From Demequina sp. NBRC 110054 (lineage in GTDB: Bacteria > Actinomycetota > Actinomycetes > Actinomycetales > Demequinaceae), in assembly GCF_002090115.1 (NCBI RefSeq), contig NZ_BBRK01000004.1, positions 930,001-994,000 of the forward strand: DNA of 64,000 bases, written 5' to 3'. Positions 5,670 to 18,123 of this stretch are shown here, one piece after another (positions within the stretch are counted from its first letter, which is position 1; the number at the start of each line of letters is the position of its first letter). The notes beneath the pieces are model-generated. The model was not told the DNA's origin and made no database searches. It worked only from the letters and a program-made list of their open reading frames with translations. A program made the position numbers and the translations under genes.

Positions 5670-6407
5670 TCAACAGAGCGTCTTTGCTGCTTGCACCACA
5701 GGCGCATCCTGGTCGAGTTCCCACCACTCGCGCTTGGCGATCATGTTGACGCCCCGGACGCAATCGTCGCCAATGTCGAATCGCTCGCAGATCAACGCGC
5801 GCCGACGTTCGATCGCCTCTTCTGTCGCCCTTATTAGGCGGTCCCCCTCCGCCAGGCGCTGAATAGCGTTCGCAGGCGTGCCGCTGTTCCGCGCGACCGC
5901 CAACTTCGTGGCGCTGTCGCCCGTCCCGGCTAGATCTGAAAGCGCCTTCGGAGGGGTGCGGCCGTTGCCTGCGACGGCCCACTTGACGCCTTCGTCCTGG
6001 TCTTTCGCAAGTTCGGACAACGTAGCTGCTGGCACGACGGTATTGCCAGCGACCTGCGCCCTTACGGTCGGATTCGCGTCTTGAGCGAGGCCTACGAGGA
6101 CAACGACGGGAACGTTCGCGTTGGACGCGACTGCCCACCTGACGTCCTCGGTCGAGTCCCTTGCCAGGCGAACGAGCACTCTTGCGGGAGCGTTGGCGTT
6201 GCCCGCCACGGTCGCCCTGACGAATTCGTCGCTATCGTCGGCGAGGCTCAGCAGGGACTCTTCGGGCGTGTTCACGTTCCCCGCAACGCTGCACCGTACG
6301 TCGTCGCTGCCGTCTGAGGCCAGTTCCGCCAAGACACTCGGGCCCGTAGCAGGAGAACCAGCAACTTCAAGACGATCTTCCAGGTCAGAGAGATGATCAG
6401 ACTTCAC
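5670..6407 (-). CDS. LRV (variant leucine-rich) repeat protein
   Basis: 245 residues. Residues about 20-190 are seven tandem copies of a roughly 24-residue unit with consensus LA-D----VR--VA-N--TP---L--LA, for example DVRCSVAGNVNTPEE and FVRATVAGNANAPAR. This is the signature of the LRV alpha/3-10 helical repeat fold, a curved protein-interaction scaffold. The iron-sulphur N-terminal cysteine cluster of the classic Azotobacter LRV protein is absent. The C-terminal 60 residues are unlike the repeats. It is likely cytoplasmic, with no signal peptide. It lies downstream of the methyltransferase on the same strand, 340 bp away. The partner is unknown. Confidence 0.75.
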   Translation of the reverse strand: MKSDHLSDLEDRLEVAGSPATGPSVLAELASDGSDDVRCSVAGNVNTPEESLLSLADDSDEFVRATVAGNANAPARVLVRLARDSTEDVRWAVASNANVPVVVLVGLAQDANPTVRAQVAGNTVVPAATLSELAKDQDEGVKWAVAGNGRTPPKALSDLAGTGDSATKLAVARNSGTPANAIQRLAEGDRLIRATEEAIERRRALICERFDIGDDCVRGVNMIAKREWWELDQDAPVVQAAKTLC

Positions 6408-6747: not shown

Positions 6748-8172
6748 CTAGTTTGCTGCGGCGGCGCTGCTCACGGTAGGCGAGTCCAGGCGCTCCAGAT
6801 GGGCTGCGATGGCTGACTTGGGGTTCTCGGCCGCGCCCGAAACCATCTCGTAGATCGCGCGACCTCGTTCGGTCGCAAGCAGTAGGTCTTTGTCGCGCTC
6901 GCAGTGCGCCTTGAGTACCTGGTTGACGACGCCGACGTTCACGCCGTTGCCCATCTGCTTGTAGGTGAGCGCGTCGCGCTGGTCGCCGAACGTGAAGTTG
7001 TCGGGCAGGCCCTGGAGGCGAGCAGCCTCACGGGCGGAGAGCTTGCGACCGATGGGGCCGATGATCGGGGTCTGCGTGATCGCGACCAGCGCCGGCAGGT
7101 GGGTGGGGCGCTTCACTCGCAGGCCCGAAGGTCGCAGCGAGATCACGCAGTCCCACATCGACTGCGCGTCCTGCGCTTGCCACTCAAGTTTGCGGCGCGA
7201 CTCCGGGAACTCACGGACCTCTCGCAGCCACTTGTCGAGATCCTTCGCGCCCAGGAACTCGCGAATGCCGTCGTAGAGGTCGAAGTTCTTGCGCAGGAAG
7301 TCAGCCTTCCATGCCGGTGCGCCGTCGAGCAGATGTTCGCGCGCGGCCTTGCTGTTCACCCACGCGTCCGTCCACACCGGGTGGCCCGGAAGCCGACGCG
7401 GCGGCTCGCCCGTGAGGCGCGCCTGGTTGGCGCGCCAGGCACGCATGAAGGCGACCATCTGCTCCCAGTGGTCGATCCACGTGCGCTCGTCGGGCGAGAT
7501 CTCGGTACCCGGAATGGTCGCGGACTTGTCCATCGGCAGATCCTCGATCAGGTTCCACTCACGGTGCATCAGCGCGTGCTCGGGCAGAGCGACAGGCTCA
7601 GGGTCGGGGTCCATCACCATGCCCTCGGGCACAAGCGTCGCGGTGATGAACACGCGCTCGCGAACCTGCGGCGAACCACCGAACTGCGGGGCGATCAGGT
7701 GAGGCGAGAAGACCGCACTCTGCTCCGCAACTTGGTAGCCAGCGTTGCGCAGGTGCTCGATGATGACCTGCCACTCGTGGCGGTGGCGAGGTCCCGCGAG
7801 GTTGCGAACGTTCTCAAGGCAGATCAGCGTGGGCTTACGCTCCCTAACGATCTTCTCGATGTTCCAGAACAGGGTGCCGCGCACCTCGTCCATGCCGCGC
7901 TGTGCTCCGGACTTGGAGAACGGCTGGCACGGGAAGCCGCCCGTGATGACGTCGTGCGCGGGCACGGTCACAGCGTTGTCGTTGGCGTCCTTGGTCACGT
8001 CCCCAAGTGCCGGGTGCTGCCAGTTCGCCTGGTAGACCGCTGCGGCGTGCTTGTCGATCTCGACGGCGTAGGCATGCTTGGCCCCCATGGCCGACAGAGC
8101 GGCTGCGAACCCCCCGATACCTGCGAACAGGTCGGCGAAGGTGATGGCGTCGGAGCGGGACTCATCGGGCAT
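6748..8172 (-). CDS. dcm-like: DNA (cytosine-5) methyltransferase
   Basis: 474 residues with the full order of C5-methyltransferase motifs. Motif I FADLFAGIGGF (residues about 12-22) binds AdoMet; motif IV GGFPCQPFSKSG carries catalytic Cys82; motif VI is ENV (120-122); motif VIII is QVRERVF (169-175); motifs IX/X near the C terminus are SAREAARLQGLPDNF and KQMGNGVNVGVV. The variable region between about 185 and 380 is the target-recognition domain; the sequence it recognises cannot be read from here. It probably protects against the candidate nuclease at 9380. The pair at 8475-9211 lies upstream on the same strand. Confidence 0.95.
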   Translation of the reverse strand: MPDESRSDAITFADLFAGIGGFAAALSAMGAKHAYAVEIDKHAAAVYQANWQHPALGDVTKDANDNAVTVPAHDVITGGFPCQPFSKSGAQRGMDEVRGTLFWNIEKIVRERKPTLICLENVRNLAGPRHRHEWQVIIEHLRNAGYQVAEQSAVFSPHLIAPQFGGSPQVRERVFITATLVPEGMVMDPDPEPVALPEHALMHREWNLIEDLPMDKSATIPGTEISPDERTWIDHWEQMVAFMRAWRANQARLTGEPPRRLPGHPVWTDAWVNSKAAREHLLDGAPAWKADFLRKNFDLYDGIREFLGAKDLDKWLREVREFPESRRKLEWQAQDAQSMWDCVISLRPSGLRVKRPTHLPALVAITQTPIIGPIGRKLSAREAARLQGLPDNFTFGDQRDALTYKQMGNGVNVGVVNQVLKAHCERDKDLLLATERGRAIYEMVSGAAENPKSAIAAHLERLDSPTVSSAAAAN

Positions 8173-8474
8173 GGCAGAAGCTTACGTCCTGCCACTGACA
8201 CGGACCAACTGCCTCTCCGAGCAGGCCCAAGAAGGGCCGTGCTCACCCTCGCCGCATGCTGTATCGGACGGGGCAATCGCGACGCCGTGAAGTTGCAGAT
8301 TGCCCGGAGGGTCGATGGCGTTCCGATGGAGTGTGAAGGCGACGCGCATTCTGCTGGGAGTCCAAGTGGGTTCTTGCCCAATCGAGCCGCCACACGCGGA
8401 AGGTACTTCCAACTTGGAATCGTCGAGCACTCGGTTCTGCACAACGTTGGCTCCGATGCAGCCCACGAACGGCC
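8173..8474. other. Intergenic stretch with a degenerate repeat
   Basis: Upstream of the methyltransferase start. The minus-strand frame 8182-8478 is not convincingly protein-like. Bases about 8297-8352 resemble 9308-9364 (both start GATTGCCCGGAG, and both contain GACGCGC about 30 bases later), so the same ancestral segment flanks the two-gene cassette at 8475-9211. Confidence 0.4.
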
Positions 8475-8747
8475 TCAAATCAGAGCCAGGAGGTGCGCAA
8501 CGACCGACGCGGTCGCTCCGCCGAACCCAGCGGACGTCATGTCCTGCGCAAAGTCACGAACCCTCGCGCGTCGATCCTCCTCCGACGCTGAGCTGCGTAC
8601 GAAAGCCTCTATCTGCTCGAACTCGTGTTGAAATGCGTCTGGAACGTCCTGGACTGAGATTCCCCGAGAGCCAATGAACACGTTGCCACCCGCGACGATG
8701 TTCCCGTTGCCGGCGACCGAAATCGCCCCGCGATCTACGGCTACCAC
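8475..8747 (-). CDS. Small protein with N-terminal amyloid-like GN motif and helical tail
   Basis: GTG 8747 overlaps the end of the upstream gene by seven bases, so translation is probably coupled. 90 residues: near the N terminus ISVAGNGNIVAGGNVFIGS, then a helical segment (about 30-90) of charged heptad-like sequence. The N-terminal motif mirrors the C-terminal motif of the upstream protein (IVNYGNDNVIGGGDV). In bacterial amyloid signalling (BASS/RHIM-like) pairs, adjacent proteins carry matching short Gly/Asn motifs, one at a C terminus and the other at an N terminus. That family assignment is inference; the residues are seen directly. A longer upstream start (8831) would read through the neighbour's coding region. 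Confidence 0.55.
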   Translation of the reverse strand: MVAVDRGAISVAGNGNIVAGGNVFIGSRGISVQDVPDAFQHEFEQIEAFVRSSASEEDRRARVRDFAQDMTSAGFGGATASVVAHLLALI

Positions 8748-9211
8748 TGTGTCACGTCCCCGCCCCCGATAACATTGTCGTTGCCGTAGTTGACGATGCC
8801 AGGACCCGATTGCGACTTCTGTGCCGTCCACTCGTCGAAGGACATGGGATCGCCCTGGAGTGCGCGTCTGAGGACCTTCTCGATGGTCATTTCATTGAAG
8901 TCGGAGTAGCCAATCAGCATGTCGGCGAAACCGCCACCCACCGCGCTGCCCTGTCCAGTTCGTGAGACGCCGAGAACGCAGCGGTTCTCCGACTTGGTTT
9001 GGAGGAACCCGCCAATGGCAGACGCGTATACGACTGGGAAGTAGTAATCCTTCCCGCGGTCAAAGCGCATCATCTGAAGGCCGGCGGTCTTGGGGAACTC
9101 CGCGCAATACTCCGCAATCTTTCTTCGAATCTCCCGGTTTGAACCCTGCTGTCCCTGCATTCGAAAACTGATGTCGGAGCAGCGATTGTAGATGGCGGTG
9201 GAGAATTCCAT
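8741..9211 (-). CDS. Hypothetical protein with C-terminal amyloid-like GN motif
   Basis: Starting from ATG 9211 (MEFSTAIYNRCSD), 156 residues. The first 130 form an unrecognised mixed domain (EIRRKIAEYCAEF, YYFPVVYASAIGGFL, RCVLGVSRTGQG, then helix EMTIEKVLRRALQ). The last 20 residues (IVNYGNDNVIGGGDV) match the N-terminal motif of the next gene, which starts inside this one. The arrangement suggests an effector or sensor that polymerises with its neighbour. Located between methyltransferase and candidate nuclease. Function not known. Confidence 0.6.
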   Translation of the reverse strand: MEFSTAIYNRCSDISFRMQGQQGSNREIRRKIAEYCAEFPKTAGLQMMRFDRGKDYYFPVVYASAIGGFLQTKSENRCVLGVSRTGQGSAVGGGFADMLIGYSDFNEMTIEKVLRRALQGDPMSFDEWTAQKSQSGPGIVNYGNDNVIGGGDVTQW

Positions 9212-9307
9212 TGGCAAACCTCCGGGTCGGAGACAGGCGTCATCGCGACTGTAGCAGCGCAGCGCTGCCCGCGGCAGGTCGGGCAACTAGTCGGCCGACT
9301 CGGGTCG

Positions 9308-9364
9308 CCGATTGCCCGGAGAGGAGAGTGCATTCCTTCGCAATGCGGAGGGGACGCGCGTGCT
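9308..9364. repeat. Degenerate copy of the segment at 8297-8352
   Basis: Starts GATTGCCCGGAG like 8298 onward and continues with a GCATTCC / GGCGTTCC block, then GACGCGCGTGCTCTTG / GACGCGCATTCTGCTG, in the same orientation. By eye more than half the bases match. It lies in the divergent promoter region between the gene starting at 9211 and the nuclease at 9380, with a GCATT-N7-AATGC inverted repeat inside. Confidence 0.4.
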
Positions 9365-9379
9365 CTTGAAAGTCAATTT

Positions 9380-10609
9380 GTGGCCACGTCTGATAAGAAG
9401 ATCGCCATGGGGCATCTGGACGTTGATCAGATCTTGCGCGACGGGTCCGTGGTCGAAGATGTAGATACAACTCTGACGCCTACTGAAAAGCGACGATTGC
9501 TGCTCGATGCTCTCCCTGGGGCGAGGGTCGAACGGTTCGCCGGAGCGCAGGTCGTACGATTTGGCGATCACGTGATTCTGAGTGCGCAGGTGACGCATCT
9601 GGGGTTTCCGTGGCCCGAATTCAAGAAGCGCATTCAGATTCCACGGCGATGGGTCGAGGTGCACGATGCGGTGATTGAGGACGGCCTTGTGCCGCGATTC
9701 GTCGGCATCTACAACTACCGCGACGTGATGGTCTTCTGCGACTTCGACCCGAGCACTTACGTACGGCGCAAGGCGAACAATTCAGCCGCGCACGTTGCGA
9801 CGAACGACCTGTACAAGGCTCAGACCGCAGGAGTCTTCTCCCGTACCGACAGCAACAGCAACCACCTGACGAGCGTCCGCTTCGATCTGTTCGCTGGCTA
9901 CCTCGGCGGAAGCGTCCGTGAGGAGCACCCGCACCTCGAAGTGTTCGCACGCTTCAACGCCGACTTCTTCTCAGGGAGGCAGTTGCAGGCACTCACGGCC
10001 GTCCGCGAAATGCACGCTTCCCAGTGGCGCGACACGATGCAGCCGGAGTGGGCAGGCTTCTATCTGGAGTACAGATTCGATGAGTTTGCTAGACGTAGTG
10101 GCGCGGACCGCCTCGTCGCCTTCCAGAAACTGAAGGGCAAGCGTGGCCTCGACTACGACTTGGTCTTCAAGGATCACGACGGCCTTGCCTACTACGGCGA
10201 TCTCAAGGCCTCCAACATCACGGCAAAGGAAGCGCCCGGAAACGATGCCGAGGACCTCAGGAACTGCATTCGAGACTTCGGCCGATTCTGGTATGTCATC
10301 TACGAACACGAGACATGGCACAGCCGGAACGAAGACGATCTGCCGGTCAAGGAGTGGAACGCTTGGAGACGCTCTGTCGGGCACATTCCGCAAGGTGGCT
10401 ACAACGAGCTTTCATACAGGGGCAAGTTCAAGTCCGCGGTTCGCTTCGTTGGGATGAAGATCCTTGAGGTCAACGAAGCGAACTTCCATGTGGTGCTTGG
10501 AGACTTCAACCAGGGGCATCAGCCCAGTGGTGCCGACCGGGCCCTGAAGGTCATGATTTCCAAGCGCAACATCGACAACTTCCTGGTCTACTCGGATGGC
10601 ATTGCCTAG
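9380..10609 (+). CDS. Candidate type II restriction endonuclease (PD-(D/E)XK-like)
   Basis: 409 residues from GTG 9380; ATG 9407 is an alternative start. A likely PD-(D/E)XK core lies in the middle: GFYLEYRFDEF (Glu230), GLDYDLVF (Asp258/260) and YYGDLKAS (Asp274, Lys276), which together fit the E...D...(D/E)xK metal-site order of type II nucleases. The N-terminal 200 residues are unassigned. The gene is transcribed away from the C5 methyltransferase four kilobases of sequence to its left, with the two GN-motif genes between. A nuclease role is inferred from the motif and the methyltransferase; no subfamily is recognised. Confidence 0.6.
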   Translation: MATSDKKIAMGHLDVDQILRDGSVVEDVDTTLTPTEKRRLLLDALPGARVERFAGAQVVRFGDHVILSAQVTHLGFPWPEFKKRIQIPRRWVEVHDAVIEDGLVPRFVGIYNYRDVMVFCDFDPSTYVRRKANNSAAHVATNDLYKAQTAGVFSRTDSNSNHLTSVRFDLFAGYLGGSVREEHPHLEVFARFNADFFSGRQLQALTAVREMHASQWRDTMQPEWAGFYLEYRFDEFARRSGADRLVAFQKLKGKRGLDYDLVFKDHDGLAYYGDLKASNITAKEAPGNDAEDLRNCIRDFGRFWYVIYEHETWHSRNEDDLPVKEWNAWRRSVGHIPQGGYNELSYRGKFKSAVRFVGMKILEVNEANFHVVLGDFNQGHQPSGADRALKVMISKRNIDNFLVYSDGIA

Positions 10610-10687: not shown

Positions 10688-11722
10688 CTACTCGGTCTCC
10701 GTCTTGATCAGCTGTGCCACCGCAATGAGTACTTTCTTGAGGCCCTGCGCCGTAACGGTCGACCCTGAACTCCAGTCTGCTGGCTCCCAGCTCATGCCAG
10801 CGCGTTCAACGATTCGCTTGGCGACGACAGGCATGGGCCCCTTGGTGGATACTTCCACGCGCTTCGCGGCCTCCTCGAACGCCTTGGCGGGGATGCTTGA
10901 GCCCACTCCAAGTTCGAGCTCGGGTGCGATGTCCAAGAGTTCGCAGAGCCCCTTGAGGAACGCTCGCTTCGTAGTCGGAGGCGGCTCGTTGAAGAAGCTC
11001 TGATACGCCAAGTCGAAGTCATCAACCGACGTTGGGTCGTGACCTGCGATCTCCGACTGTGCTCTGGCGGCACCGCCATCGGAGTCGGGACAAGGTGGCC
11101 GCCGTGCAAGACGCAACAGCGCAAGTAGCGAGTCATCTCCGACAATCGTGTACCTGCTTGTGCCTGACTCCGGCTCGTCGTCTGTGCCGAGACCCTGCAC
11201 GTCGATGCCTGCCGCAGACAGTTCCGCTAGCACGTCTCCCGCTGGCTCAGTATCAGTGGGCTTGCGGTTCGCCGGTGTGGGTGCTTCCGAGAAGTGGGAT
11301 TCAGCGTACTCAAGTGCAGCATCAACCATATTGGCCTCTGCCTGGCTGTTTTCTGGGCCGAGCAGCGCGGGCAACGCCTTTCGCGCCACTCCTTGCTTCC
11401 CAGGTTCCGTCGATAGGGCCAAGTCCATCGCCCACCGTGCGCGCTCCCACCACGCGGTGCGTCTCGCGGCGTGGTTCGCGTCTTTCGAAGCGCGCAGTGC
11501 TGAGTAGGCCGCGATCAGCGCGCCAACTATCGCAATCAGTGCAGCCATCGGTGGGCTCAGAAGGAAGTCCCGCAAGAATTCGGTGTCGACCACGAATGGC
11601 GGGAGAAATCCACGAACCAATGCGCCAACAATCGCGCTGGCTACTGCGATACCGGCAACTCTTCGTTGCTTCGCCCATGCCGTCCGAATTGTGGTGCGCC
11701 GCTCTTCGCTTCTGGACTCCAC
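10688..11722 (-). CDS. Hypothetical protein with two N-terminal membrane segments
   Basis: 344 residues. Two hydrophobic helices lie at about 22-45 (VAGIAVASAIVGALVRGFL) and 56-75 (MAALIAIVGALIAAYSAL), followed by a basic linker and a long soluble cytoplasmic region rich in helices. The C-terminal part (FLKGLCELLDIAPEL, PMPVVAKRIVERAGM) shows no known catalytic motif. It is last in the minus-strand series running from 18,979, 240 bp beyond the HNH gene, and converges with the nuclease gene. It could be the membrane component of the defence block or an unrelated island gene. Confidence 0.65.
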   Translation of the reverse strand: MESRSEERRTTIRTAWAKQRRVAGIAVASAIVGALVRGFLPPFVVDTEFLRDFLLSPPMAALIAIVGALIAAYSALRASKDANHAARRTAWWERARWAMDLALSTEPGKQGVARKALPALLGPENSQAEANMVDAALEYAESHFSEAPTPANRKPTDTEPAGDVLAELSAAGIDVQGLGTDDEPESGTSRYTIVGDDSLLALLRLARRPPCPDSDGGAARAQSEIAGHDPTSVDDFDLAYQSFFNEPPPTTKRAFLKGLCELLDIAPELELGVGSSIPAKAFEEAAKRVEVSTKGPMPVVAKRIVERAGMSWEPADWSSGSTVTAQGLKKVLIAVAQLIKTETE

Positions 11723-11963: not shown

Positions 11964-12431
11964 CTATGCAAGGCGGCGGCGCACCTGCTCCACCTGGTCG
12001 GCGAGCCAAGGGAAGTCGTAGGTTTCCCACGGGATTAGGTGCACGTCGTGGCCCTTTGCACGGTTGTGTTCGCGGCACAGGGTGAGGCCGTTGTCGGGTC
12101 GAGTTGGTCCCCCCAACGCAAAGGGGAACATGTGGTCCACTTCAAGCGGCGACCCTGAGCAGGAGTAGCCCCAGACCAACTGCGACTGACAAGCGTGCCC
12201 CGGACCGCTCCGGAAGAGTCGAGGTCCCCTAAGGTCGGGGAGGCCATCGGAGGCATCCTCTAGCCATCCCGGGTGCACAAGTACTAGACCACTCACGATC
12301 CTGTCGGTCGACGTTTGGTATCGCTCGTAGGCGTCGATCCATGTTCCGGTGAGCGCAGCCTGCAGGACCTGGAAATAGGTCTCAGCCCTGGCTATCCGTG
12401 AAGCGAAGTCGATCGGGCCGGTCATGTCCAA
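11964..12431 (-). CDS. HNH endonuclease
   Basis: 155 residues. The HNH motif is complete: EVDHMFPF with His100, the LGG-TRPDNGLTLC loop with Asn114, and REHNRAKG with His122. Cysteines at 81, 91 and 119 may form a structural zinc site. The N-terminal 70 residues are helical and unassigned. Its start lies ten bases inside the end of the DGQHR gene, so the two are translationally coupled and probably act together. HNH nucleases coupled to DNA-modification readers cut modified or unmodified DNA; which applies here is unknown. Confidence 0.85.
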   Translation of the reverse strand: MDMTGPIDFASRIARAETYFQVLQAALTGTWIDAYERYQTSTDRIVSGLVLVHPGWLEDASDGLPDLRGPRLFRSGPGHACQSQLVWGYSCSGSPLEVDHMFPFALGGPTRPDNGLTLCREHNRAKGHDVHLIPWETYDFPWLADQVEQVRRRLA

Positions 12432-13957
12432 GTGATTTCAAGGGTAAGTGGCGAGCCCTTGACGCCCCCATATAGCGAGGCCTGAATCTTGAGTTCGATG
12501 CGACCCGGCCCATCAGGGAGAGTGATGCCGCGCTTCAGGGCTTTCGGAGAGTACTGATCGGAGAACATGTCGCGGCTGTCTCGGGTGTCCACCTGGCCGA
12601 CGTTCACCGTCTGAGCCGAGAGCTTCAGGTGACGCCGGCTGCCGAGGTCGATCTTCTTTACGCCGCCGGTTACGTCAAGGGAGTGCTCCTGTCGCCCCGG
12701 CTTGGCGGGACGGCCCTTTGGCGTCAGGTTCGACGCGGTGAACGAAATCGAAGCTTTGTCTCCTCGAAGGAAGGTGGGGATGTCGGCTACCCCTTCCGGC
12801 AGTGCGCCCGCAGCGAACACCTGCTTGAAGGTTCCCTGGGCAACATTCTTCGAGAGGGTCCCAGTGTTGCCGCCCGTAGTTACAACCCAACCGGTGAAGT
12901 CCCAGTTGGCCGTGGTGAATCCAAGCTTGGAAAGGAGATCGTCCCACCCGGTGGGAGGAGTTCCCTTCTCTCGTAGGTAGGTCAGCACACCGGTGACGTA
13001 GCCCTCCTCCATGTACTTCTGGCGCGCTTTGGAACCGCCGAAGAATGCACTCTTGTCGTTGGAACTTGTATCGGCTCGGCCGAGAGCGAGGAGCGAGAGT
13101 GCGAGTTGCTCGGCGAGTTCCGTCGGAGTCAGCAATGTAGTGCCCGCCGCTGGACGACCGTAATAGTGGGCTCGAACGAGGTCCTTGAGTTCGATGCAGT
13201 TGAACTGAAAACCACTATGGATTGCCGGTTTGCCCCCGAGCTCCGGGTTGAACTCGATCGTGTCGAAGAATGGATTCACGACGGGAGGATCCCCGAACTG
13301 CTGCGTTCGGCAGAGGTCGGCTACCGCCTTCATCGCCTTCCAGTCGGCCGTCGTGTCCGTCTCGTAGGGGCCGAGTTTGAAGGCAAACTGAAGCCACTCG
13401 CTGTGTACATGCTGGAGGGGAGTGGCGAGCGTAGTTACCTCTGCGAAGATCTTCGCGAACTGTTTCGGGGCGTACGCGTTGAGCGCGTCGCCGTGCAGGA
13501 GAACGAGTGGCACAGGGTTGCTGCTGCGAGACGATTTCGACAAGCCCAGAACTCGGTGCTGGCCGTCAAGGATCCACAGAGGCTTTGGACCACTTCCCGA
13601 AGGAACCGCAACCGCGATCTCGAAGACCTCGGTGTTCTGTCCGTTGAGATTCTGCTGAGTCACAACCACCGACTCTTGCTCGCTCACCGCGAGCAGGACC
13701 GGGTTAGGCATGAGCTCCGAAGTCTGGGAAAATTTGTCCTTGATCTTCTCGATCTTGTCTTTGATCGGGGGACGCTGCCAGTCCTTCACGGGGTCGCCGA
13801 GGATATTGTCTGCGATCCGGTAGTTTTCGGACTGCACGGTGAAACTGGGGACGGCCGCGATAGGCTCCAACTCAGCCGCAGATAGGAATCCCAGGTAGAT
13901 CGGGTACTTCTTGGCCCCATCGGCAATCTCGGTGCGCAGGGCTTTGATTGTGGGCAT
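12422..13957 (-). CDS. DGQHR-domain protein (DndB/DpdB-like)
   Basis: The start is at ATG 13957 (MPTIKALRTEIADG) with GGAGGA seven bases upstream; the extra 22 codons to 14023 are unlikely. 511 residues. The diagnostic motif ILDGQHRVLGL is at 129-139, preceded by DWQRPPIKDKIEKIKDKF, which is the typical layout of DndB-family proteins. In Dnd and Dpd systems such proteins regulate or take part in DNA modification. No dndCDE, sspBCD or dpdA gene is visible here, so the DGQHR protein is used outside the known modification sets, paired with an overlapping HNH nuclease. Confidence 0.85.
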   Translation of the reverse strand: MPTIKALRTEIADGAKKYPIYLGFLSAAELEPIAAVPSFTVQSENYRIADNILGDPVKDWQRPPIKDKIEKIKDKFSQTSELMPNPVLLAVSEQESVVVTQQNLNGQNTEVFEIAVAVPSGSGPKPLWILDGQHRVLGLSKSSRSSNPVPLVLLHGDALNAYAPKQFAKIFAEVTTLATPLQHVHSEWLQFAFKLGPYETDTTADWKAMKAVADLCRTQQFGDPPVVNPFFDTIEFNPELGGKPAIHSGFQFNCIELKDLVRAHYYGRPAAGTTLLTPTELAEQLALSLLALGRADTSSNDKSAFFGGSKARQKYMEEGYVTGVLTYLREKGTPPTGWDDLLSKLGFTTANWDFTGWVVTTGGNTGTLSKNVAQGTFKQVFAAGALPEGVADIPTFLRGDKASISFTASNLTPKGRPAKPGRQEHSLDVTGGVKKIDLGSRRHLKLSAQTVNVGQVDTRDSRDMFSDQYSPKALKRGITLPDGPGRIELKIQASLYGGVKGSPLTLEITWT

Positions 13958-14125: not shown

Positions 14126-14911
14126 TCACCTTCGAGCTGTCTCCCATGCTTCCGCGACGCGTTCAAGGAACTCGCCGTTGCGAAGGCTCTGGTTGAGGGT
14201 GGCCACTGAGTGCGCGAGCAGGATCGCTGCCGGAGCGTCGCGTTTGCCCAGAACGTTCAGGTAGTCGAGCAGATCGAAGTACGGGACTGGCAGGGGCCGC
14301 CTATTGGCGGTCATCTCCTGGACGCAGTACTCCTGGGCGAGGGCCCTGGGGTCCGAAACGTTCCGTGTGATCCGCAGCCGTGTGCGGACCTGGTTGATCA
14401 TGCGTCTCTTGTTCGCCGGTGTGAACCCAAGCCTCAGGTCGTCGGCTACGGACTCGAAGACTGCCTCAACATTGAGGGCTACTTCTGCCTGCCATGAAGC
14501 GCGTCTGCGTGGGTCCCGGGATACCGCGAGTGCCTCACGGACCAATGCACTCAGGGCGTCTTCCATTCTCTGCGCGAGGGCGGCTGCAAGCGCCTGCCAG
14601 TCGGGTGCATCGCCCACGTGCGCGCTGTAGTAGTGATTCGCTTCTTGGTTGTCGCTATGTTGTGCGGCCGTTCGCAGGCGATACAGGTGCTTTTCGACAC
14701 TGCGAGCCGGGTGGTCACGAGCGGAGGCCGTGAGGAACGCTACGTCGTCTCCGATTTCTTCACGGTAGAACTTGGAGTAGTCGCTTACCAGGCTGTCGAA
14801 TTGTTCGCGGCTCTCGCAACGCGGGGTCAGATCTACGCCGGTGCCGAGAGAAAGGCCCGACCCGGTAGCAAGCCTCTTCGCTTGGGACAGATCCTCCAGG
14901 GGTGATGTCAT
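14126..14911 (-). CDS. Helical protein with HEPN-like RxxxxH motif
   Basis: 261 residues, almost wholly helical. Residues 76-95 read LYRLRTAAQHSDNQ; Arg80 and His85 fit the R-x4-6-H catalytic motif of HEPN ribonucleases, and the surrounding Q-H-x-x-N pattern is common in them. It starts with an ATGA overlap with the STAND gene stop (14908-14911), so it is co-translated with it. In toxin and defence systems HEPN proteins are RNA-cutting effectors. The HEPN call is an inference from one motif; the rest of the protein is unassigned. Confidence 0.65.
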   Translation of the reverse strand: MTSPLEDLSQAKRLATGSGLSLGTGVDLTPRCESREQFDSLVSDYSKFYREEIGDDVAFLTASARDHPARSVEKHLYRLRTAAQHSDNQEANHYYSAHVGDAPDWQALAAALAQRMEDALSALVREALAVSRDPRRRASWQAEVALNVEAVFESVADDLRLGFTPANKRRMINQVRTRLRITRNVSDPRALAQEYCVQEMTANRRPLPVPYFDLLDYLNVLGKRDAPAAILLAHSVATLNQSLRNGEFLERVAEAWETARR

Positions 14912-17900
14912 GTCCGGGCCTGCCTGCGCAATGCGCTCCGTGGCTCGGCGACAGCACCTCGTGAGAGCTTGAAGCCAATGTGGAACGCGGGCAGTTGCTG
15001 GCCACGTGCGAACTCGCCCGTCGTCGAGAAGAGGCGAGGTTCAAACTTCACCCTCGTAGAGAGTTCGTTGACCCAGACCAGCCCGGACCTGCCATCTGAG
15101 GATTCGACTCGGCCCGTGAAGGTCTCGGGCTCCATGGAATCTGAAGCGAGCACATATGCCGTGTAGATGCGTCTTGAGAGTTGTCGAGTCAGGTCACCGA
15201 CCTCTCGGAAGTGCCGAGACGCTTCAGGGAAATTTCCCGCGGAAAACTCTGCAATCGCCTGCGCGAAGCGGAGCCGGTAGATGTCCGGGAGTCCCGCGTC
15301 TTCGATTTCAGACGCTAGGAGACGCACAAGATCAATCTCGCTTTCATTCAGGTGAATGAGGGCGCGATCACGGGGAAGCAGCCGTTCGTCAGCAATGGAC
15401 TTCCATGTCAGGTCGAGCATGAGTTGGGCGCAGCGCCAATCAGTTCGCACGGCCTGATGAGAGTTCCGAAGCAGTTCCAGAGCCTTGCGCTCACCTTCAG
15501 GGCCCTCCTTCGCGTCAAACTGCGCAAGGAAGAATGTGGCTGCCGGGTCGAGATTCCCTTTGAGGCTGTCTAGGTAGGCGAAGACTTCGTCGTCTCGTCC
15601 AAGTAGTTTCTGAAGTTCAACACCCCGCTTGTCGAGTCCGGCTAGCTGGCGGTCATTGAGCGATGCGCGGTCGATCGACTCAAGGGTGGCTACGGCGTTC
15701 GCGAGAACATCAAGACGCTCGCTGGGCGAGAGCGTGCCAGCCTCAACTGCCAACTCAGTTGACCATGCGAGCACGTCAATGGGGTAGACGTTCCCGGGGT
15801 CGATGGACCTGGCGTCAAGTACGGCATGCAACACGTCGTCCAGTCGGTGGCCCAGGCCGTTGAGTTTCTCATGGTTCGGACTCTTCGTGTGTTCGTAGAT
15901 GATTGCTCCGAGCGTCGACGCGAGCTCGACGGCGAGCGATAGACGCATCAGGCCGCGGGTTGCTGGATCGGCAAGCACATCGTCGAGGACTTCCCTGTTG
16001 TACTCCAGGTCCGTCACCCGCTCTTCGCTCGTGCCGCGCTGGGCGTTTTGCCGCCAATGGACGTCGCCGCGCGTGAATGCAGACTCCTGCAACACGAGGC
16101 GAGGGATAGACCGACCACTTTCCTCGCGTCGTGCGCGTAATGCACCGGCGACTGTCCCGAAGTGCGGCCGGTACTGTGACCGCTCGGAAGTCGGGCCAAT
16201 TCTCTCCAAGAGCGACACAAGGAACTGAACCTCGTCTGCCCCGCCGGAGAATCCGTCGGTGACCCGGACGTTTCGGATCGCCTGTCCAACTACCTCGATT
16301 TCGACTTCAAGAGGAACCTCCTCCCTTGCGAGGAGATCGGCCTCAAGGTGTGAACGCACGCCCAGGAAGAAGTCGCCGTTATCGTCGTCGATTTCTCGGA
16401 TGATGTCGGAAGCGCTGAGCGCGTCTCGGACGCTCTGTGAACCTTCGTGGCCGAGAATTCGCAGCGCGAGATCCAAGGGAACGGGGACGCCGTGCTTGCC
16501 GGCGACAAGAACCAGGGTGGTGACCTTCTGGATTGGTGCCCGATCCGAAAACGCCTGCTCTCTGATGGCGATGGTGTCCACTTTTTCGGGCAGCAGATCG
16601 CGCCATCCGAGGCCGGCGGCGAGGAAGGCCTCCTGCATTGAAGTCAACCGTTGAGAGTCAGAGTCTTCGTCCCGGCGCTCGCGGGCGAGTTTGGCCATGC
16701 TCTTCTCGGCAGCACGCATCTCGCGAGCCAGCCCACCGCGTAGTTGCCGTTCGGTCTCAGGGAGTGTGCGATACAGCAGAGCGAGAAAACTTGTGTCGAG
16801 GAGACCCTGTGGTCTGCTTGCCGGTATTCCAAAGGAGTCGAGAAGCGTGACTAGTGCATCGGTTTCGACGGGGGATAGATCGATCGGTGCTTCGATGATT
16901 GTTGAGGTAGCGCTCTCGCTCCTGTAGGCGGAGCCAATGACGAGGAACTTTCGTCCTCGCGCGTGTAGTTGCCGCGAGAGAGCTTCGTACTCTCCTGGAT
17001 CGACCATGCCGTCCCAGATAAGAATCGTTGCTCGGGCTCCTTGGTCCTCAGCCCAGGCTGCGAACATGTCGAGGTCTTCGACAGACGGCCGAACTGTGCG
17101 GCGTGATTGATGGAGTACCGCGTAATCTCCGCTGCGTGCCAACTCGACAGCTATTGCGGCCAGCGCGATGCTCTTCCCTGAAGCGGTTTGACCGGCCAGG
17201 ACTATTGGCGAAGGGAGTTCACGATGCGCGAGCGCGCTCGTGGCTGCTTCCAGGAGTAGCGCCTCGAAGTCTCGATGCAGGTACATGTTTGCTGCAAGGC
17301 CCCGCCACCGCGGCACGCCCTCTGTAGCACCAACGAAACTTCGAAACTCCTGGTATCTCGCGGCATCCGAACTGAACACTGGCGGAACTTGGAGGTCAAG
17401 GTCAATCGGCCTCGCGGACCGTCGTACTTCGTTCCAGGTGTGCACGTCGACCGTGACGAAGCCGTCGCCGAGGGCAATCCTGTGTGGATTTGCGGCAGCG
17501 GTAGTGGCAACGTCCTTGGTGGCGGCTCCGGACTCTTCGAGCCACACCATGTACTGCTCTAGGGATTCTTCGTGAGCTACCAGTTGACCGGACTCGACGA
17601 ACGCCTTGACGAGGGCGTCGTTCAGCCACGCTGAGGCAGAGAAGAGGTGCGCTTGACGCGTGCCCAGGAGCCCCCAAGTGGGTGCCAGGTCTCCGACGTC
17701 AAGGGCGTCGTCCGCAGACCATTCCTCGATCAGAACCGTTCCGCGTGGAGTCACGGTTTCGCCAGCCAACCGGGCAATTTCCTGATTGCTCCGCATTCTC
17801 GCAGTGGTTGCCTGTACGGCGGTCTTCGCGGGCTGCTCATCCTCTGGGAGGTGCGGAGCGCCGAGCAGATAGCGAACTTCAAGGGCCGTCTGGCTTCGAG

Positions 17901-18123
17901 ACGGGCTCGTGCGCATTGCGCCATGTGCCGAGACCGTGCGCCAATCCGCCTTGAAGGCCTCAGATACGGCAGGGTCCGTAGATGACGTGTAGATGCCGTT
18001 CCACGGGTACGCAAGAGAGGCTTCGCCCAGTGTCTTGACTCCGCCCTCGCCGAGGACCAGGAACACAGGCCCGCTTGCGAGTTGTGCGGCGAGTTGTCTC
18101 GCCCCAGGGTTGAGACCAGGCAA
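14908..18123 (-). CDS. Large STAND-type P-loop NTPase with SIR2-like N terminus
   Basis: 1071 residues from a TTG start preceded by AGGGGGT. Residues 10-200 look SIR2-like but degenerate: PVFLVLGEGGV in place of the GAG loop, YTSSTDPAVSEAF in place of the usual TTNYD, then YLLGAPHLPEDE. The NTPase core has Walker A GQTASGKS (311-318), Walker B ATILIWDGM (about 365-373) and a sensor segment VIGSAYR. Winged-helix-like and TPR-like helical repeats fill 470-1000. The last 60 residues (FTGRVESSDGRSGLVWV, FHIGFKLSRG) resemble a small OB/cold-shock-like fold. Proteins of this plan are intracellular phage sensors with a built-in effector; the role here is inferred. It is the first of a coupled gene set. 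Confidence 0.8.
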   Translation of the reverse strand: MPGLNPGARQLAAQLASGPVFLVLGEGGVKTLGEASLAYPWNGIYTSSTDPAVSEAFKADWRTVSAHGAMRTSPSRSQTALEVRYLLGAPHLPEDEQPAKTAVQATTARMRSNQEIARLAGETVTPRGTVLIEEWSADDALDVGDLAPTWGLLGTRQAHLFSASAWLNDALVKAFVESGQLVAHEESLEQYMVWLEESGAATKDVATTAAANPHRIALGDGFVTVDVHTWNEVRRSARPIDLDLQVPPVFSSDAARYQEFRSFVGATEGVPRWRGLAANMYLHRDFEALLLEAATSALAHRELPSPIVLAGQTASGKSIALAAIAVELARSGDYAVLHQSRRTVRPSVEDLDMFAAWAEDQGARATILIWDGMVDPGEYEALSRQLHARGRKFLVIGSAYRSESATSTIIEAPIDLSPVETDALVTLLDSFGIPASRPQGLLDTSFLALLYRTLPETERQLRGGLAREMRAAEKSMAKLARERRDEDSDSQRLTSMQEAFLAAGLGWRDLLPEKVDTIAIREQAFSDRAPIQKVTTLVLVAGKHGVPVPLDLALRILGHEGSQSVRDALSASDIIREIDDDNGDFFLGVRSHLEADLLAREEVPLEVEIEVVGQAIRNVRVTDGFSGGADEVQFLVSLLERIGPTSERSQYRPHFGTVAGALRARREESGRSIPRLVLQESAFTRGDVHWRQNAQRGTSEERVTDLEYNREVLDDVLADPATRGLMRLSLAVELASTLGAIIYEHTKSPNHEKLNGLGHRLDDVLHAVLDARSIDPGNVYPIDVLAWSTELAVEAGTLSPSERLDVLANAVATLESIDRASLNDRQLAGLDKRGVELQKLLGRDDEVFAYLDSLKGNLDPAATFFLAQFDAKEGPEGERKALELLRNSHQAVRTDWRCAQLMLDLTWKSIADERLLPRDRALIHLNESEIDLVRLLASEIEDAGLPDIYRLRFAQAIAEFSAGNFPEASRHFREVGDLTRQLSRRIYTAYVLASDSMEPETFTGRVESSDGRSGLVWVNELSTRVKFEPRLFSTTGEFARGQQLPAFHIGFKLSRGAVAEPRSALRRQART

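Follow-up and report, generated by a model that had tools for sequence, protein, structure and literature searches.

Apart from the locus described here, DGQHR proteins are familiar from phosphorothioate and deazaguanine systems. Among the closest described counterparts of this locus are DndI and SspE, which, in the passages cited, combine an NTPase of the ParB-like superfamily with an HNH nuclease and are tied to a mark made by the host (PMC11662687, PMC9646914). Both are single fused proteins composed of DUF262, with a DGQQR motif, and DUF1524, and the mark is phosphorothioate. DndI is described as active as a nuclease without the mark and harmful to PT-deficient cells, with an ATPase that the mark stimulates (PMC11662687), and SspE as requiring phosphorothioate for activity under the gating of GTP (PMC9646914); one survey, in the part cited, treats SspE as the equivalent of DndB (PMC10853773). 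GmrSD, a type IV enzyme whose target is glucosylated hydroxymethylcytosine, also includes a ParB/Srx-type domain, whose DGQQR motif has been compared to DGQHR, and a nuclease of the HNH type, the two being at times encoded separately; the same passages give the DGQHR and DUF262 domains a common ParB/Srx fold (PMC4619093). Bacterial proteins in which a ParB-CTPase fold is fused to HNH (PF01844) join the same two functions in one chain, the passages on them mentioning neither a gene pair nor a link to a methylase, and a DndB-like protein bound ATP and GTP (PMC12704722).

The window, that is, the whole stretch of 64,000 nucleotides of Demequina sp. NBRC 110054 DNA that was analysed, includes these functions as two adjacent genes.

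11964..12425, minus strand: HNH endonuclease, 153 amino acids; PF01844 at 23.2 bits (cut-off 21.4)
12422..13957, minus strand: DGQHR protein, a relative of DndB and DpdB, 511 amino acids; ATG at 13957, with GGAGGAG just 5' of the ATG

In contrast to DndI and SspE, two proteins are encoded and the candidate mark is 5-methylcytosine; in contrast to GmrSD, both partners belong to other families. No description of a DGQHR-HNH gene pair was found in the literature searched, which was open-access PMC only.

A first-pass annotation of this DNA had pointed to a clear DGQHR motif and to an HNH gene starting inside the last codons of its partner, and both observations held. The motif occupies residues 131-135, and in the junction sequence TGG ACATGA the two genes share the four bases ATGA, which contain the HNH start codon and the TGA stop of the DGQHR gene. 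Such a four-base stop/start overlap is the usual sign of translational coupling. The start codons of both genes are our choice, and longer TTG starts are possible for both. An alignment of the four DGQHR homologues showed that the WQRP and DGQHR motifs are invariant. In the three HNH homologues the residues D97 H98, N112, H120 N121 and K124, as well as the cysteines C79, C89 and C117, are invariant; the window protein passes the curated PF01844 cut-off, and the other two are under it at 16.6 and 21.1 bits. From its PF01844 score and these catalytic residues, the window protein is predicted to be an HNH endonuclease. A search of the PDB with the HNH profile returned weak HNH matches only (best E 0.0053), and one with the DGQHR protein returned chance matches only. 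The AlphaFold models had a mean pLDDT of 36.1 for the HNH protein (2-row alignment) and 40.2 for the DGQHR protein (3-row alignment), in which only the stretch 401-490 averages 57-79 per ten residues; both were too weak for a fold to be assigned. The last ~110 amino acids of the DGQHR protein may be beta-rich, as they appear in this weak model. Foldseek searches with these models gave nothing at E<=0.001.

Family placement was examined by curated models and by profile comparison. The window DGQHR protein matched the NCBIfam model TIGR03187 DGQHR with E 4.9e-13 and 49.5 bits, and those of L005 and L009 (see below) scored 50.9 and 51.3 bits, all under the cut-off of 58.85. PF14072 DndB gave no match for the window and L009, and 17.1 and 24.8 bits for L005 and L017 (cut-off 29.1). 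Matches to TIGR04172 DGQHR_dnd_1 were weak (L005, 1.7e-8; L009, 6.5e-7; window, 8.3e-4), the scores of 18.5-33.9 bits comparing with a cut-off of 450. Membership in Dpd was rejected: the NCBIfam DpdB equivalog model gave E 1.2e-12 and 47.5 bits against a cut-off of 300, and a PADLOC scan of 17 proteins of the window and 2 of its left flank found no other Dpd match. Dnd was rejected as well. A complete Dnd set at another place in the genome is unsupported, as DndC (TIGR03183) had 0 matches in the own genome, a search with no positive control in which the control genomes were also below cut-off, and the DGQHR query recovered itself only and no second DGQHR protein. Druantia (DruE plus DruM) does not apply to the same 17 window and 2 left-flank proteins, where only the methylase described below matches the DruM2 model and there is no DruE.

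At the profile level, hhalign gave 98.0% (E 1.8e-13) for the four DGQHR proteins against nine ORFs taken as DpdB and 97.3% against two DndB-like ORFs, the homology extending over approximately residues 15-266. The DpdB and DndB ORFs compared are mostly ~370-380 amino acids long and belong to modification systems not found here, whereas the window protein has ~240 further residues and an HNH partner. Comparison with 25 viral-contig ORFs carrying DGQQRLTT, taken as DUF262, reached 15.4% and lay away from the motif; over the same DUF262-type stretch the DpdB set reached 82.4% and the DndB-like set 73.5%. The HNH partner compared with the last 260 residues of 50 DUF262-type ORFs, in which DUF1524 was assumed, gave 0.3%, and a profile comparison against the methylase 0.1%. 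GmrSD, SspE or DndI identity through DUF262 was therefore rejected on the 15.4% value and on the lack of any Pfam match for the window DGQHR protein, and identity through a DUF1524-type HNH on the 0.3% value and on the match of the partner to PF01844. On these comparisons the pair has the layout of GmrSD, SspE and DndI and is not placed among them.

Full-length relatives of the DGQHR protein are rare. They were found in an Agrococcus (G634; L005/L010), in a 1.2-Mb actinobacterium (G881; L017) and in a Phycisphaeraceae MAG, a planctomycete (G1108; L009), with 35%, 34% and 39% identity to the window protein in L005, L017 and L009, respectively. Counting full-length matches only, in genome sets that overlap and each include their centre genome, there was one in 396 genomes of the own phylum (the own genome), two in 396 of the own order (own and G634), three in 394 of the class (own, G634 and G881), one in 246 of the phylum of G1108 and one in 151 of the order of G881, the last two being G1108 and G881 themselves. 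A first scan of the genome contig collection with a single protein gave none, and a second, pattern-based scan gave two DGQHR loci. The neighbours of homologues, which the first-pass annotation had advised to survey, included an HNH partner wherever the downstream side is readable, which with the window makes three of three loci; the L009 contig ends 143 bases past the DGQHR match, so that the place of a partner is outside the readable sequence. The pairs of G634 and G881 are 33-37% identical to the window pair and similarly placed, with the same order from DGQHR to HNH; in L005 the genes overlap by 10 bases, and in L017 they are 18 bases apart. This recurring order is more than chance. No DGQHR relatives were detected in plasmids or phages by tblastn or in viral contigs by peptide patterns, and no HNH relatives in plasmids or viral contigs. 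Partial and weak DGQHR matches occurred in G031, G437, G981, G1073, G1105, G1162, G1188, G1215 and G1233, the first two of which were taken as Dpd because they lie beside genes that by eye are FolE-like or QueC/DpdA-like. Two DpdB-like ORFs with DGQQR instead of DGQHR were observed in each of three actinobacterial loci, L008 (7581-8714 and 10212-11330), L018 and L019.

The surroundings of these relatives differ. The planctomycete DGQHR gene is divergent from a TIGR04096 member at L009 8082-9671 on the minus strand (552 bits, cut-off 150), a model that NCBIfam describes as a phosphorothioation-associated putative methyltransferase. A TrlF-like AAA ATPase is encoded nearby, and no Dnd modification gene was noticed on the 11-kb contig, where four of the ORFs were scanned with NCBIfam. 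In Agrococcus a possible composite mobile unit was noted (L005 2397-13332), in which an IS1634 copy on one side and a second IS1634 end, at a 100-base assembly gap, on the other enclose the pair, a gene for a TIGR04141 protein and, after the pair and near the gap and that IS1634 end, a vsr-like fragment.

The first-pass annotation had also stated that no modification enzyme is present within the window. This proved incorrect, as the neighbourhood of the pair includes the following genes.

6748..8172, minus strand: C5-cytosine DNA methyltransferase, 474 amino acids; PF00145 5.2e-70; TIGR00675 192.2 bits (cut-off 100.65); PADLOC PDLC00034 4.5e-173
9380..10609, plus strand: type II restriction endonuclease, 409 amino acids; PADLOC PDLC03409 5e-165; PF20296 MTaX1 4.3e-23
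10688..11722, minus strand: gene between the restriction enzyme and the HNH gene; hydrophobic N-terminus (by eye) and a C-terminal domain of ~90 amino acids

The methylase is 3.8 kb and the restriction enzyme 1.35 kb from the pair. With a C5 methylase and a nuclease side by side, in an arrangement that recurs, 6748-10609 is predicted to be a type II restriction-modification (R-M) system. The ~90-residue C-terminal domain encoded at 10688-11722 was also found near the methylase family in 3/20 loci of the own order (L058, L063 and L071; tblastn, E<=1e-4) and 1/5 of the order of G881 (L207), where it forms the first part of a 261-aa ORF resembling an HNH nuclease by eye. On the methylase side, 5670-6407 (minus strand) encodes an LRV/HEAT-like repeat protein (PF01816, 8.5e-23). 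Upstream of the pair, 14908-18123 (minus strand) encodes a 1071-aa protein with nSTAND_NTPase5 (PF25199, 3.5e-9) and overlaps by four bases with 14126-14911 (minus strand), a 261-aa gene with no Pfam match; together they are likely another defence module located 5' of the pair. The first 20 kb of the window have a GC content of 60-66% and the remainder mostly 67-73%. A tRNA-Leu(CAG) gene lies ~4.3 kb left of the window (L007 13625-13709; G000:C4 925625-925709) and is a possible integration site of the low-GC island; a search for repeats bounding the island returned short matches only and no convincing flanking repeat.

The methylase family, defined in the genome counts by E<=1e-60, is present in all three actinobacterial genomes with the pair (the window's, G881 and G634). 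In L017 the DGQHR, HNH and methylase genes are co-directional, spaced by 18 and then 39 bases, and are followed by a convergent 244-aa gene; the methylase is 50% identical to that of the window. In the window, the restriction gene on the opposite strand stands between the methylase and the pair. In G634 the two are unlinked, a methylase (50%) and a restriction enzyme of the window type (57%) being located 0.89 Mb from the pair. The restriction enzyme candidate of L017 has no similarity to the type common to the window and G634, and because of this difference the methylase is the element that the pair genomes share. The background frequency of the family, taken from genomes of the same group with no other defence gene counted as a control, was 26/198 in the own order (25/197 without the own genome), 6/106 in the order of G881 (5/105 without it) and 1/105 in the family of G634, the one being G634 itself (0/104 others). 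The product of these rates, with the pair genomes counted in, is 7e-5, or 5e-4 without the window; pooling over 409 genome entries, which possibly overlap, gives 4.8e-4. The sample is small, with three pair genomes and four DGQHR genomes, and the idea arose from the window and L017. Of the two genomes examined later, G634 carries the methylase, and G1108, a MAG of unknown completeness, had no match at E<=1e-20. In a tree of 28 methylases the rows of the three pair genomes stand apart, with 3 changes, a number that shuffled labels also give. This scatter fits repeated joining of pair and methylase and fits chance equally; one gain followed by two losses is an alternative.

The converse association was examined in other methylase neighbourhoods, the best 20 of 26 places in the own order and 5 in the order of G881, with ~6 kb on each side (L204 is shorter, at a contig end). 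The window methylase and restriction enzyme belong to type II R-M systems with a C5 methylase, and the pair was rejected as a part of the R-M core because none of these 25 neighbourhoods has a DGQHR-HNH pair. Relatives of the window restriction enzyme accompany the methylase in 5/20 own-order loci that lack the pair, as well as in G634. The 244-aa gene of L017 has relatives (61-67%) in 3/5 methylase neighbourhoods of its order and is for this reason probably the restriction enzyme of that methylase. Matches that are vsr-like were present in 11/25 of the other methylase stretches, one of them 6.5 kb away.

The reading that we prefer, with a probability of about 0.4, is that the pair is an NTP-gated restriction module that takes a resident methyl mark as self. 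The DGQHR protein, of the DndB/DpdB superfamily and per the literature a ParB/Srx-type NTPase, would sense DNA and control the separate HNH nuclease, with which it may form a complex. The self mark would come from the resident C5-cytosine methylase of the type II R-M system. Where host DNA bears this mark, the DGQHR protein would hydrolyse NTP and release or hold back the HNH enzyme, and on phage DNA that lacks it the HNH nuclease would nick or cut. The scheme is the one described for DndI and SspE with phosphorothioate, transferred to an ordinary 5-methylcytosine mark and to protein families that gave no match to theirs. A mark-dependent NTPase-nuclease is expected together with the maker of its mark and rarely without it, and the mark-maker may live alone; the occurrence of the methylase without the pair is then to be expected because the pair would need the mark and not the reverse. 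The three actinobacteria follow this pattern. The planctomycete MAG does not, unless the putative methylase adjoining its DGQHR gene takes that part. In favour of this reading are also the gene order kept in all three readable loci, the preserved HNH catalytic positions and the lower methylase rates of the groups; against it are the small number of loci, the unlinked methylase of G634, the opposite-strand restriction gene in the window and the possibility that defence-rich genomes carry both by chance. The suggestion of the first-pass annotation that the pair may detect a mark of the host's own making agrees with the co-occurrence with a C5 methylase, the act of reading itself being still conjectural. 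More doubtful is the narrower proposal that the two proteins read 5-methylcytosine from the resident type II methylase as a licence not to attack and can join differing R-M systems that share the methylase family, which would make them the equivalent of SspE/DndI for methylation, with a DGQHR protein from the DndB/DpdB branch.

Other explanations divide the same evidence differently. The pair could be a type IV-like nuclease, in line with the other suggestion of the first-pass annotation, foreign modified DNA. Cutting by the HNH enzyme would then be directed by a DGQHR protein specific for modified bases of invading DNA (hydroxymethyl, glucosyl or deazaguanine), unmodified DNA being covered by the R-M system. 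A ParB-type domain with HNH is the layout of GmrSD, at times as two genes, and enzymes of this family accompany BREX in the passages cited (PMC4619093, PMC12839542); furthermore, the pair of G634 has no modification gene of its own within the fetched stretch. However, the profile comparison gave no match with DUF262-type ORFs at the motif (15.4%) and none with their C-terminal parts (0.3%), and this explanation by itself predicts no tie to one methylase family; we consider it rather unlikely. A lower likelihood still is given to the view that pair and methylase are unrelated mobile defence modules which came together in islands, their co-occurrence coming from defence-rich genomes and small numbers. 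The 25 methylase neighbourhoods that lack the pair, in which a restriction gene was recognised in 5/20 and 3/5, agree with it, as do the unlinked genes of G634, the MAG with no methylase and a methylase tree that shows no clustering of the pair label beyond that of shuffled labels; the lack of the methylase in the 104 other genomes of the family of G634 and the co-directional 39-base spacing in L017 speak against it.

Finally, the DGQHR protein could be an auxiliary of the DndB/DpdB kind that tunes or assists the methylase, with the HNH protein nicking for access or acting in Vsr-like mismatch repair after deamination of 5-methylcytosine. Its closest profile relatives are indeed DpdB- and DndB-type ORFs, DpdB is described in the passages cited as an ATPase for dPreQ0 insertion (PMC12839542), and the vsr-like sequences noted after the pair in L005 and in the methylase stretches would suit such a role. 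Nonetheless, none of the 25 other methylase neighbourhoods has the pair, and the HNH protein matches general HNH models and not Vsr; this is the least probable of the explanations considered. If the preferred reading of the pair as a module that takes the resident methyl mark as self is true, defence by a mark-sensing NTPase and nuclease would be extended to plain methylation by a simple system of two genes.
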